From: Caballeronia turbans | Lineage (GTDB): Bacteria; Pseudomonadota; Gammaproteobacteria; Burkholderiales; Burkholderiaceae | Reading direction: 5' to 3' | Assembly (NCBI GenBank): GCA_001544655.2 | Contig: FCOD02000025.1 | Location: 24,684-88,683, forward strand | Length of the DNA: 64,000 nucleotides | In this document: piece after piece, positions 876 to 64,000 of the stretch | Position numbering within the stretch: position 1 is the stretch's first letter | Layout of the letters: every line of letters starts with the position of its first letter | Made by a program: the position numbers and the translations under genes | Notes under the pieces: model-generated | Told to the model about the DNA's origin: nothing | Database searches by the model: none | The model's input: the letters and a program-made list of their open reading frames with translations, nothing else

Positions 876-2255
876 ATGGACGTCGCTCGGCGGCAACTCA
901 TCTATGTGACTCGCGATCCAAGCGAGACGCTGTGTGCGCGATTCGAGGAGCGCGGCTGGCATATCGAAATCGTCGCGAGCGCGCGAGACACGCGCAAGGC
1001 ACTGCGTAGCGATCTGGCGACCGGCGGGCTGCTGGATTTGTCGAGTCATTTCGAATCGCATGAACTGGCGGCGTTCGAATCGTCGCTGACGATGACCAAC
1101 GTGGGCTGGGTCGCGGCCACCGTTGCCGGACAACTCGAAGACGCCGCCGTGCGGCGCCTGATTCGCGACTATTGCTTCGATTACGTGACGCTGCCGACGT
1201 CGAACGACCGCATCGTCGATTCCGTCGGTCACGCGTATGGCATGGTTTCGCTGCACGACGCCGCGTCGCACGATGCGCGCAGCGAGGGCCGCGCCGAGGG
1301 CGAAATGGTCGGTTCGTGCGACGCGATGCTCGCGCTCTTCCGTTCCATCCGAAAAGTCGCGATGACCGACGCGCCCGTCTTCATTTCGGGCGAATCCGGC
1401 ACCGGCAAGGAGTTGACGGCCGTCGCCATCCACGAGCGTTCCGCGCGTCGCGATCAGCCGTTCGTCGCCATCAACTGCGGCGCGATTCCGGCGCATCTGC
1501 TGCAATCGGAGCTCTTCGGCTACGAACGCGGCGCGTTCACGGGCGCGAATCAGCGCAAGATCGGCCGTGTCGAAGCGGCCAACGGCGGCACGCTGTTCCT
1601 CGATGAAATCGGCGATCTGCCGCTCGAAAGTCAGGCGAGCCTGTTGCGCTTCCTGCAGGAACGCAAGGTGGAGCGCCTGGGGGGTCACGGCTCGACGCCG
1701 GTGGATGTGCGCATCATCTCGGCGACGCACGTCGACATGCAGACCGCGATGATCGAAGGGCGTTTCCGCGCGGACTTGTATCACCGCCTGTGCGTGCTGC
1801 AGATCGACGAGCCGCCGCTGCGCGCGCGCGGCAAGGACATCGAACTGCTCGCGAAGCATATGCTCGACCGATTCAAGAAGGACGCGAGCCGGCGCCTGCG
1901 CGGATTTTCGCCCGATGCGATCGCCGCGATTCACAACTACGGCTGGCCGGGCAACGTGCGCGAACTGATCAACCGCGTGCGGCGTGCGATCGTGATGTCG
2001 GAAGGGCGGCAGATCACCGCCCGCGATCTCGAACTCGGCGAGTACGTCGAAGTGGCGCCGGTTTCGCTCGCGCAGGCGCGTGAAGCGGCCGAGCGGCAGG
2101 CGATCGAACTCGCGCTCCTGCGCCATCGCGGACGCCTCGGCGACGCGGCGCACGAACTGGGGATCTCGCGCGTGACGTTGTATCGCCTGTTGAGCGCGCA
2201 TGGGATGCGTCACATCGAGGTCGATGCGCCGTCAGAGCACGCTACGCGCGGCTGA
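876..2255 (+). CDS. VpsR-type sigma-54-interacting transcriptional regulator
   Basis: A 459-residue enhancer-binding protein. Residues 1-125 form a divergent receiver-like (VpsR-type) domain. The AAA+ domain follows, with Walker A GESGTGKE near 172-179, an intact GAFTGA loop at 219-224 and Walker B FLDE near 241-244. A C-terminal Fis-type helix-turn-helix sits at about 420-445 ([12 protein letters not shown]). The intact GAFTGA predicts true sigma-54 activation. In VpsR-family proteins the N-terminal domain lacks normal phosphotransfer, and in Vibrio VpsR c-di-GMP is the ligand; whether that holds here is inference. AAAGGA lies just before the ATG. The gene is monocistronic, ending at a strong terminator. 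Relatives control exopolysaccharide and biofilm genes, but none is adjacent. Confidence 0.9.
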
Positions 2256-61801: not shown

Positions 61802-63196
61802 TCACGACGATTCCAGCTTCATCCGCTGGAGCTTGTTGTAGAGCGTCTTCGGGCTGATGCCGAGCAGCGTCGCCGCGCGATGGCGCGTGCCGCCGACCGC
61901 TTCGAGCGTCGCGCGGATCAGCATGTCCTCGACGTCCGCGAGTGCCGTGCCGACCGTCACCTGCACGCTGCTGCCGTTCAGGCCGCGTCCGCCGAGACCG
62001 CCCGGCTCATCGACGCGCAGCGTTTCGATCGTCTCGCCTGACGCGTGATACGCGCGCCGCACGCGCTCGCGCATTTCGCGCACGTTGCCCGGCCATTCGC
62101 TCGCGATGCACTCTCGAATGAAAGCCGGACTGATCCGCTTCGGCGACCCGCTCGTGATCCCGGCGATGTGGTTCTCGCGGTTCAGTTCATCGACGAGCGT
62201 CTCCGCGATGAGTGCGATGTCGTCGTCGCGATCGCGCAACGGCGGCAGCACGATCGACGACGCCGACAGCCGCTGAAACAGATCCTCGCGCATTGCGCCG
62301 CTCGCGACCGCCTCGCGCATCGGCAAGCGGGAGGCGGCGATCAGCCGGAAGTCCGTCATGATGCGGTTGCTGCCGCCCACGCGCATGAACGTCTGCGAAT
62401 CGAGCGCGCGCAAGAGCGCTTCCTGCTGCGCGGCCGGCAGCGAATCGATCTGATCGAGGAAAAGCGTGCCGCCGCCCGCCTGTTCGAGCAGGCCCGGCTC
62501 GCGGTTCTCCGCGCCGGCGAATGCGTTGCGTTCGTGGCCGAAGAGGACGCTTTCCATCGAACGCTGCGAGCCGTCGCCGTTGCGGCTCGCGGAGCAGTCG
62601 AAGGTGACGAACGGGCCTTTGCGCCGGCGGCTCAATTGATGGATCGTGCGTGCGGCGATCTTCTTGCCGGTGCCCGGCTCGCCGCAGATCAGCACGGCGG
62701 CTTCCGTCGGCGCAGTGTGCTCGATCAGATCGTAGACGTGCTGCATCGCGGCGCTGCGGCCGATCATGTCGCCGAAGTGGCCCAGCTCGCGCAGCGTCGA
62801 GCGCAGCGACTGGACTTCCTCGGTGAGCTCGTACGGCCTCGGAATGCGCGCGAGCAGGCTGCGCAAGCGCGGAATGTTCACCGGTTTGAGCAGGTAGTCC
62901 CAGATGCCGTGCCGCAGGCCTTCGATTGCGCTTTCGACCGTCGCGTTGCCGGTCATCACGATGACGGGCAGTGCGCCATCGGGCGGTTGCGACGGCAAGC
63001 TCGGCAGGAGGTCGAGGCCGGAGCCGTCCGGAAGATTCAGGTCGATCAGCACGACATCCGGGATGAAGCGGGTCAGCGCGGAGCGCGCTTCGGCGAGCGT
63101 CGTGGCGGTATCGACGGAAAAGCCGTCTGCCGTGAGGATCGCGGACAGGCCGGAGAGGCTATTGGGATCGTCTTCGACAATCAGTGCGTGTGGCAT
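61802..63196 (-). CDS. response regulator with degenerate sigma-54 activator domain
   Basis: 464 residues from MPHALIVEDDPNS. An intact receiver (Asp52 phospho-site, Lys104), an AAA+ domain (Walker A CGEPGTGKK at about 171-179), and a Fis-type helix-turn-helix (HRAATLLGISPKTLYNKLQRM). Two features are abnormal: the sigma-54 contact loop GAFTGA is NAFAGA (residues 224-229), and Walker B reads FLDQ (Asp248-Gln249) in place of FLDE. Sensor I also differs. The protein is full length with no frameshift, so it is maintained. It may activate without sigma-54, in the way that TyrR or HupR do. No cognate sensor kinase is adjacent. Confidence 0.9.
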   Translation of the reverse strand: MPHALIVEDDPNSLSGLSAILTADGFSVDTATTLAEARSALTRFIPDVVLIDLNLPDGSGLDLLPSLPSQPPDGALPVIVMTGNATVESAIEGLRHGIWDYLLKPVNIPRLRSLLARIPRPYELTEEVQSLRSTLRELGHFGDMIGRSAAMQHVYDLIEHTAPTEAAVLICGEPGTGKKIAARTIHQLSRRRKGPFVTFDCSASRNGDGSQRSMESVLFGHERNAFAGAENREPGLLEQAGGGTLFLDQIDSLPAAQQEALLRALDSQTFMRVGGSNRIMTDFRLIAASRLPMREAVASGAMREDLFQRLSASSIVLPPLRDRDDDIALIAETLVDELNRENHIAGITSGSPKRISPAFIRECIASEWPGNVREMRERVRRAYHASGETIETLRVDEPGGLGGRGLNGSSVQVTVGTALADVEDMLIRATLEAVGGTRHRAATLLGISPKTLYNKLQRMKLESS

Positions 63197-63353
63197 GGCG
63201 AACCAACGTATCAAAGTGGACTGTAGTGCGCCGTCTCCGCGTAGGATCCGGCGAGTCGTGGGCGGGCAACGGCGCCTCGTTCCGGCGTCTGGCGCGTAGC
63301 CCGCTGCGGTTTTCGTCCTGCGTTACTCGTTCTTCATCTCGTGTGCGAGCGCG

Positions 63354-63704
63354 TCATTGCGACCTGAGATGCAATTCGTTGCTGACGGATTGCACGCCCG
63401 GTACGCCTCGCGTCACGGCGAGCGCTTTCTGAATCTGTACCTCCGAATCCACATACCCCGACAACTGCACGACGCCGCGATACGTCGCGACGCTCATCGG
63501 CAAGACTTTCAGTTCCGGGTCCGCGACGAGCGCGGCTTTCACACGAGCGGCAAGCGCAGCGTCGTCGGTGATGATCTCGCTGGCCCCGTTCGTGTTCGCT
63601 GATGTCGCCGGGCTGGACTTGCAGCCGGCGGTGAAAGCGAACGCGGGCAATGCGAGCGCCGCGACGACCAGAAACCGGCTTCGGATGAAAGGCGTGCTTG
63701 GCAT
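63354..63704 (-). CDS. BON domain lipoprotein
   Basis: 116 residues from MPSTPFIRSRFLVVAALAL. A signal sequence with a lipobox (FTAGCKSSPA, Cys about 27) is followed by one BON domain (DAALAARVKAALVADPELKVLPMSVATYRGVVQLSGYVDSEVQIQKALAVTRGVPGVQSV). BON proteins bind membranes and help outer-membrane integrity under osmotic stress. Reads toward the degenerate response regulator. Confidence 0.9.
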   Translation of the reverse strand: MPSTPFIRSRFLVVAALALPAFAFTAGCKSSPATSANTNGASEIITDDAALAARVKAALVADPELKVLPMSVATYRGVVQLSGYVDSEVQIQKALAVTRGVPGVQSVSNELHLRSQ

Positions 63705-64000
63705 GTCGGTTCTGAAATCTGGATTTGCACGTTCGAGCAGAAATCGTGCCACGCAGTTATTTTTTCCGATGGAAGCGCTTCCCGCAGACCTTTCGCGGAT
63801 GTTTCATTTGATCGCAATCGAGCCTAAACGGGGCGCGACCGGTAAAGTTTGCCTGAATTTGTCAAAAAATTCATGCAAAAGAAAAAGCGCCCGCGATGGG
63901 TAATGCCGTTCAGTTAGCGCTGAACGGCATTTTTGTTTATGGGGTGAGAAGTGGTTGTAAACGGAGCGCCGGGCTGTTAACTTTCCGGTGCGATGCTTGC
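63705..64000. other. right-end intergenic region
   Basis: No supported gene. It contains an orphan plus-strand terminator at 63902-63938. A TTGACA is present on the minus strand near 63860 but without a good -10. Confidence 0.4.
63902..63938 (+). terminator. orphan rho-independent terminator on the plus strand
   Basis: ATGCCGTTCAG (63903-63913) pairs with CTGAACGGCAT (63920-63930), 11 bp, followed by TTTTGTTTAT. No plus-strand gene precedes it; the nearest plus-strand coding sequence ends at 61747. It may end an unannotated small RNA. Confidence 0.7.

Follow-up and report, generated by a model that had tools for sequence, protein, structure and literature searches.

The gene at 61802..63196 on the minus strand of the window (the whole 64-kb stretch of DNA analysed here) encodes P0001, a 464-aa NtrC-type response regulator with a degenerate motor domain (translation and Pfam). 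P0001 is probably a motor-dead and presumably DNA-binding regulator, which outside Burkholderia is transcribed from a predicted sigma-54 promoter. As judged from the sequence, it appears to be a paralogue of a canonical sigma-54 activator with an AAA+ motor that would no longer grip sigma-54, and the Caballeronia form has probably lost ATP turnover too.

Domains and motifs of P0001

The open reading frame of P0001 was unbroken and began with ATG; a TTG six codons upstream, also in the open frame, is an alternative start. The receiver domain (residues 1-118; 62843..63196, minus strand, as are all P0001 features below) matched Pfam Response_reg (4-113) and holds Asp52, the phosphoacceptor (63041-63043), Thr82, and Lys104. 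The AAA+ domain (residues 143-388; 62033..62770) matched Sigma54_activat (PF00158, residues 143-314, E 1.8e-51) and AAA_lid_14. In the structure model its AAA+ fold was kept and matched FlrC, FleQ, NtrC1, and PspF. The Fis-type helix-turn-helix (HTH; residues 418-460; 61817..61945) matched HTH_8 (418-457) and was 89-90% identical between genera. The first-pass annotation had described the receiver, Walker A, and the DNA-binding domain as intact and the frame as whole, and the translation and the Pfam matches bore this out.

That annotation had also correctly read and placed an L1 loop of NAFAGA for GAFTGA (residues 224-229; 62510..62527) and a Walker B of FLDQ for FLDE (residues 246-249; 62450..62461), both confirmed by translation and orthologue alignment. 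Nevertheless, it overlooked two more departures, namely Arg290 at the sensor I position (62327..62329), where the canonical paralogue has Asn, and a Lys directly after the Walker A Lys, where the paralogue P0003 has Glu. Walker A itself reads GEPGTGKK (Lys178; 62660..62683). Arg303 and Arg309 are present at the arginine-finger positions, as placed by alignment to PspF.

PF00158 matched 22 places in the own genome, 17 strongly (E < 1e-50) and 5 weakly. Of the 17 strong matches, all but P0001 have Thr or Ser at loop position 4 (Ser in L005 and L015), and all but P0001 have the Walker B Asp-Glu. L015 (G000:C54:20888-21379) has an unusual loop, NSFSGA, with an intact Walker B; the open frame that holds its bEBP domain is 735 aa long. 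The protein at 876-2255 (plus strand), which had been offered as a canonical regulator for comparison, does carry GAFTGA and FLDE; however, its N-terminal domain is VpsR (PF20161), with no Response_reg match listed. The same loop string occurs in L006 of this genome. The bEBP at 876-2255 may belong to the c-di-GMP-related VpsR/BerB group.

Orthologues and selection on the domains

Orthologues of P0001 were found in Caballeronia, Paraburkholderia, Burkholderia, Trinickia, Mycetohabitans, and further genera, nine genus-level groups altogether, and in 35/36 sampled Caballeronia congeners, one of which (G035) has the gene split over two frames. nagZ was detected beside nearly all fetched loci, the exceptions being L029, L065, L094, the contig-end pieces L133/L134, and L125, which is located elsewhere. 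Of 15 loci viewed, several have an efp-like frame on the other side. No cognate kinase was recognised by eye in the ORFs of these 15 neighbourhoods of about 7 kb each.

The motifs were tallied in 105 distinct full-length orthologues, after the short or broken L097, L133, and L134 had been dropped. The receiver Asp, Thr, and Lys and the Walker A Lys were each kept in 105/105. Loop position 4 was Thr in 4/105 (among them L125, which lies away from the nagZ locus and outside the clade in the tree) and Thr or Ser in 11/105. The Walker B Glu was found in 48/105; sensor I was Asn in 1/105 and Arg in 92/105; and the first and second arginine fingers were present in 80/105 and 99/105, respectively. 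The canonical paralogue had the consensus at every tallied site in 27/27.

Whether NAFAGA and DQ are conserved in Burkholderia and Caballeronia had been put forward as a check. The Gln was present in all 47 distinct Caballeronia copies (FLDQ 43, FLEQ 4), which shared five loops (NAFAGA 27, GAFAGA 13, NAYAGA 5, NAYADA 1, and GAFADA 1). However, the other genera carried GAFDGA, GAFNGA, GAFSGA, or rearranged loops, many with DE. Burkholderia orthologues had mostly GAFDGA with the Walker B Glu, Paraburkholderia mostly GAF(N/S/G/T)GA, and Mycetohabitans GAFDGA or GALDGA with Asp-Arg; in Trinickia the whole loop was rearranged. The conserved feature of the family, as far as the alignments tell, is thus the loss of constraint, of which NAFAGA with DQ is the Caballeronia form.

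A strain-specific mutation or a sequencing error, which the first-pass annotation had named as what orthologues with GAFTGA and DE would indicate, is refuted by the orthologues and has practically no probability left. Across the 47 distinct Caballeronia copies neither GAFTGA nor DE occurs and the Gln is always present, changes at L1 and Walker B turn up in many genomes sequenced separately, and nothing was found in favour of an error. Two Paraburkholderia copies (L078 and L080) do have full GAFTGA and Asp-Glu, within a clade mostly without the Thr; this is an apparent regain or drift.

Selection differed between the domains. For the P0001 orthologues of ten Caballeronia genomes, the pooled NG86 dN/dS was 0.037 in the receiver, 0.154 in the AAA+ domain, and 0.014 in the HTH, compared to 0.032, 0.042, and 0.024 for the paralogue in the same ten genomes. 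Likewise, the identities between genera in 27 genomes were 0.90, 0.59, and 0.89 for P0001 (0.89, 0.60, and 0.90 with three Burkholderia rows included) and 0.85, 0.87, and 0.97 for the paralogue. On these sequences, the receiver and DNA-binding ends are under strong purifying selection, and constraint is lost on the motor, not on the whole protein. Since a dN/dS of 0.15 still means purifying selection, the AAA+ domain should retain some structural or ATP-binding role. The loop and Walker B columns were left out of the alignment for a 79-row phylogeny, in which the nagZ-linked orthologues grouped as one clade (SH-aLRT 99). Loop position 4 needs no fewer than 20 changes on this tree, and the E/not-E state of Walker B no fewer than 5.

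Two rival explanations bear on these data. Simple decay of a redundant duplicate heading for loss would account for the frame-split, shortened, or absent copies in a handful of genomes that are small or reduced (G035, G231, G156, and G036), but it is highly improbable given the receiver and HTH values, the presence of the gene in nearly all congeners, and the retained promoter element described below. In the small-genome congeners, split or partial copies were seen in L133 and L134 (G035 and G231), and none in G036. It is likewise very unlikely, though somewhat less so than decay, that P0001 is a working sigma-54 activator tolerating a variant loop. An excerpt of PMC3162934 treats Ser at loop position 4 as functional, and some orthologues could still activate because 11/105 have Thr or Ser there, two have full GAFTGA, and 48 retain the Glu. 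Nevertheless, elsewhere the Thr position is Ala, Asp, Asn, Gly, Pro, or others, the Trinickia loop is rearranged, the sensor I Asn is missing in 104/105 and the first arginine finger in 25/105, and the AAA+ domain evolves fast. Moreover, single loop changes, above all of the central Phe/Thr, mostly abolish activity according to the same excerpt (PMC3162934).

The predicted sigma-54 promoter

The first-pass annotation had proposed a repurposed regulator acting without sigma-54 remodelling. The selected, whole gene with its degenerate AAA+ domain and kept receiver and HTH agrees with that proposal, which nevertheless missed a predicted sigma-54 promoter. The -24/-12 element was first seen by aligning the upstream regions of orthologues; in the window it reads TGGCACGATTTCTGCT (63736-63751, minus strand) and is the sole match to the pattern in the 64 kb. 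A mean of 0.13 matches was expected, and at least one match occurred in 12/100 shuffles, so that the window match taken by itself is weak. A narrower sigma-54 pattern skipped TGGCACGATTTCTGCT, which has C in place of one pattern T; the wider pattern caught it. Between the element and P0001 lies a BON-domain lipoprotein-like gene (63354..63704, minus strand; Pfam BON, 3.2e-18), the probable first gene of the P0001 transcription unit. Within 63000-64000, the terminator-like sites were all on the plus strand, and a strict consensus scan found no sigma-70 promoter.

The element was kept upstream of the orthologues. With scoring weights that follow the general sigma-54 consensus, and with the scoring fixed after the first sites had been seen, it was found in the upstream kilobase of 80/109 loci versus 6/370 shuffles, and in 78/107 after removal of second fetches (L128 = L048, L129 = L051). 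The scan omitted L091, in which the start pattern was unmatched, L133, and L134. By genus, the element was scored in 47/51 Caballeronia loci (45/49 without the second fetches), 13/17 Paraburkholderia plus 2/2 divergent ones, 4/6 Trinickia, 4/4 Mycetohabitans, and, in the further genus groups, 3/3 of g37, 3/3 of g40, 3/3 of g39, 1/1 of g31, and 0/1 of g41. The same scoring found it in 0/18 Burkholderia loci. A control with real sequence, for the 39 loci scanned of L067-L106, gave the element in 33/39 loci versus 12/466 one-kilobase blocks; the figures were 24/39 versus 1/466 at a cut of 5.5 and 20/39 versus 0/466 at a cut of 6. At weaker cuts, 143/466 (4.0) and 39/466 (4.5) control blocks scored. 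Ten loci missed the element when Burkholderia and L125 are excluded; nine carry a weaker copy (4.0-4.5), a score of little weight by itself, but in 8/9 TTTACC precedes it by 92-118 bp, as at the other loci; the tenth, L036, has just 434 bp of upstream sequence.

The small gene between promoter and regulator varies. It encodes a BON protein in Caballeronia and g39 and a BON-like one, by eye, in g31; it is CsbD-like in most viewed Paraburkholderia loci and a DUF1328 gene in L098 of g40, four of these small proteins having been run against Pfam. Trinickia and g37 loci have the promoter 118-162 bp before the regulator, with scant room for an intervening gene. BON, CsbD-like, and DUF1328 proteins belong to small envelope or stress-type families. 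Taken together, the upstream sequences predict that a sigma-54 promoter drives the P0001 orthologues outside Burkholderia, with or without a small stress-type gene ahead of them. Since P0001 is probably unable to activate sigma-54 and yet stands behind this predicted promoter, the disabled regulator is probably itself a sigma-54 target.

An upstream element, AAACTTTACCGG (63839..63850, minus strand), is a possible enhancer site, picked out by the recurrence of TTTACCG across loci. TTTACCG preceded the -24 element in 58/72 loci, compared to 1.7 expected from base shuffles, at a distance of 67-126 bp, mostly 82-118, with clusters near -82, -93, -107, and -117; this looks like the helical spacing of a putative enhancer site. 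In the own genome, AAACTTTACCGG with at most one mismatch was found at 5 places versus 20 for a reversed control, and exactly at its own promoter only. TTTACC with a sigma-54 site was found at one place, the own promoter, and the reversed control also gave one. These searches did not show a shared enhancer of P0001 and P0003, as a different, TTTAACCAC-like string recurs at the sigma-54-like sites upstream of P0003 in several genera, nor did they show a shared regulon via AAACTTTACCGG, exact copies of which are confined to the P0001-unit promoter in the genome. A GGTWAAG-N4-CTTWACC dyad was dropped; it reached 14/14 in Trinickia but just 10-11 in Caballeronia, and shuffles reach 10 in about 6/72.

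In Burkholderia loci L107-L123, an AT-rich block about 100-170 bp before the regulator is strongly conserved (TATTCAATTTGTATC...GGTAACTGTTTTA in an alignment of 11 loci); it occupies the place expected for the promoter and has no sigma-54 site. Some copies contain CCGGTAAAG, which is the CTTTACCGG element reversed.

The nearest relative of P0001 among the 16 other bEBPs of the genome, in all three domains, is P0003, with identities of 59/118 in the receiver, 114/246 in AAA+, and 22/43 in the HTH, the last barely ahead of L011. P0003 has the same receiver-AAA+-HTH order; in contrast to P0001, it has GSFTGA, FLDE, the sensor I Asn, and a slow-evolving AAA+ domain. The genome has a second rpoN gene, at a distance of about 4 kb from P0003 (C53, L141). 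The cluster at L141 (G000:C53) comprises this rpoN, P0003, the receiver-less bEBP L011 (GSFTGA), and, by eye, a trehalose-phosphate synthase-like gene, and there is a sigma-54-like element at L141 5840 (minus strand). A genome lacking rpoN would have tested sigma-54 independence naturally, but PF04552 was present in 66/66 genomes examined, including G036, which is without a P0001 orthologue. The promoter loss was also compared with the occurrence of P0003. In Burkholderia, 13/18 genomes have just a 61-63% relative and 5/18 none besides the regulator itself; a relative of 85-99% identity was found in 35/37 other genomes, the exceptions being G036 (regulator absent too) and G076 (72%). This correlation of P0003 with the promoter loss is just suggestive, because it is one phylogenetic event.

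Proposed role and known systems

The first-pass annotation had stated that a Walker B Glu-to-Gln change traps AAA+ proteins in an ATP-bound state. The change alone is not silencing. According to an excerpt of PMC4132715, PspF E108Q has less than 1% of the ATPase activity, binds ATP 30-fold tighter, and is hexameric without nucleotide, but its engagement with sigma-54 RNA polymerase persists, and it is a good activator when the DNA has been opened beforehand. This activity requires an intact GAFTGA, T86A abolishes it, and rings with alternating T86A subunits fail (PMC4132715, same excerpt). PspF E108Q and E108Q/T86A resemble Caballeronia P0001 in the Walker B Glu-to-Gln and the loop Thr-to-Ala changes; unlike P0001, they are engineered AAA+ domain proteins, and the Caballeronia loop has an additional Asn at position 1. 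By this analogy, the loop change, rather than Glu-to-Gln, should kill sigma-54 engagement. Because both kinds of change of the PspF variants are present in P0001, it would be expected to bind ATP, form an oligomer, and occupy DNA, leaving sigma-54 polymerase unopened.

We speculate that the P0001 unit is switched on by a sigma-54 activator, with P0003 or its neighbour as the likeliest one, that P0001 is then phosphorylated by a shared or other kinase, and that it would bind ATP without hydrolysis and form a stable oligomer, which would occupy DNA while being unable to open sigma-54 polymerase. For the last step, our tentative first choice, held at somewhat less than even confidence, is a feedback brake via occupation of the enhancer site or via poisoned mixed rings. 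Such a phosphorylation-gated feedback antagonist is favoured because of the PspF analogy and because P0003 is the nearest relative and lies near the second rpoN. P0001 could poison mixed rings with P0003, if the PspF rings are a guide, and dominant regulation of another activator, which the first-pass annotation had also raised, is possible. Since all 18/18 Burkholderia loci are without the sigma-54 site, feedback would not be the family's job everywhere. A fuller scenario, which we regard as rather doubtful, is that of a decoy, in which a duplicated sigma-54 activator, sigma-54-expressed, phosphorylated, and ATP-locked, would sit on enhancers or in mixed hexamers and brake its own activator, Burkholderia having later uncoupled and rewired it.

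The next choice for the last step, possible but less likely than the brake, is a relay on ordinary sigma-70 promoters. P0001 would then be a sigma-54-independent regulator like Rhodobacter capsulatus NtrC, HupR, or TyrR, with the sigma-54 promoter just its input. Relatives without GAFTGA do act at sigma-70 promoters, as far as excerpts of PMC10274813 and PMC3162934 describe them; the ATP-binding Lys is retained while hydrolysis residues drift, in line with what is reported for R. capsulatus NtrC; and Burkholderia retains the gene without a sigma-54 site. However, no target promoter was found, and the conserved upstream element stands at an enhancer-like position of the gene's own sigma-54 promoter.

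With the feedback brake as the preferred reading, P0001 would seem to be a brake built into its circuit of origin, or else a side branch of that circuit. The family appears as a loss in progress, with separate losses of the L1 loop, the catalytic Glu, sensor I, and one arginine finger and with retention of the ATP-binding Lys, receiver, and HTH, and it thus separates the requirements of an ATP-binding, non-remodelling bEBP. If driven by the predicted promoter, the unit would be unusual in that sigma-54 directs the synthesis of a disabled activator. Because this promoter is predicted in Paraburkholderia, Caballeronia, and Trinickia but in none of the examined Burkholderia loci, the family would offer a natural before and after of promoter rewiring.

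In the open-access literature, no publication was recognised by title as being about this gene. Within the literature searched, three things are new, namely the P0001 family itself, a graded decay that differs by domain, and the prediction of a sigma-54 promoter before a probably sigma-54-incompetent activator. The N-terminal domains of TyrR, DhaR, and VpsR are of other types, and the P0001 family differs from these proteins by its intact phosphoacceptor receiver. The kind is known: according to excerpts of PMC3162934 and PMC10274813, GAFTGA-defective bEBP relatives have been described one by one. TyrR, DhaR, VpsR, YplP, and about 110 GAFTGA-defective homologues resemble P0001 as sigma-54-activator relatives with a defective GAFTGA, and some members of the P0001 family may be in that list of homologues (PMC3162934, as excerpted). 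P0001 shares the feature of the sigma-54-independent relatives, a bEBP domain without the consensus GAFTGA, with R. capsulatus NtrC, HupR, and Caulobacter NtrC. For the R. capsulatus and Caulobacter NtrC proteins, the excerpts (PMC10274813, PMC3162934) state that aspartyl phosphorylation matters and that the R. capsulatus protein requires ATP binding, not hydrolysis. In those two proteins, as excerpted, L1 is deleted and the targets are known, whereas the P0001 family shows mostly point changes and varies at Walker B, and a sigma-54 promoter is predicted before the gene.
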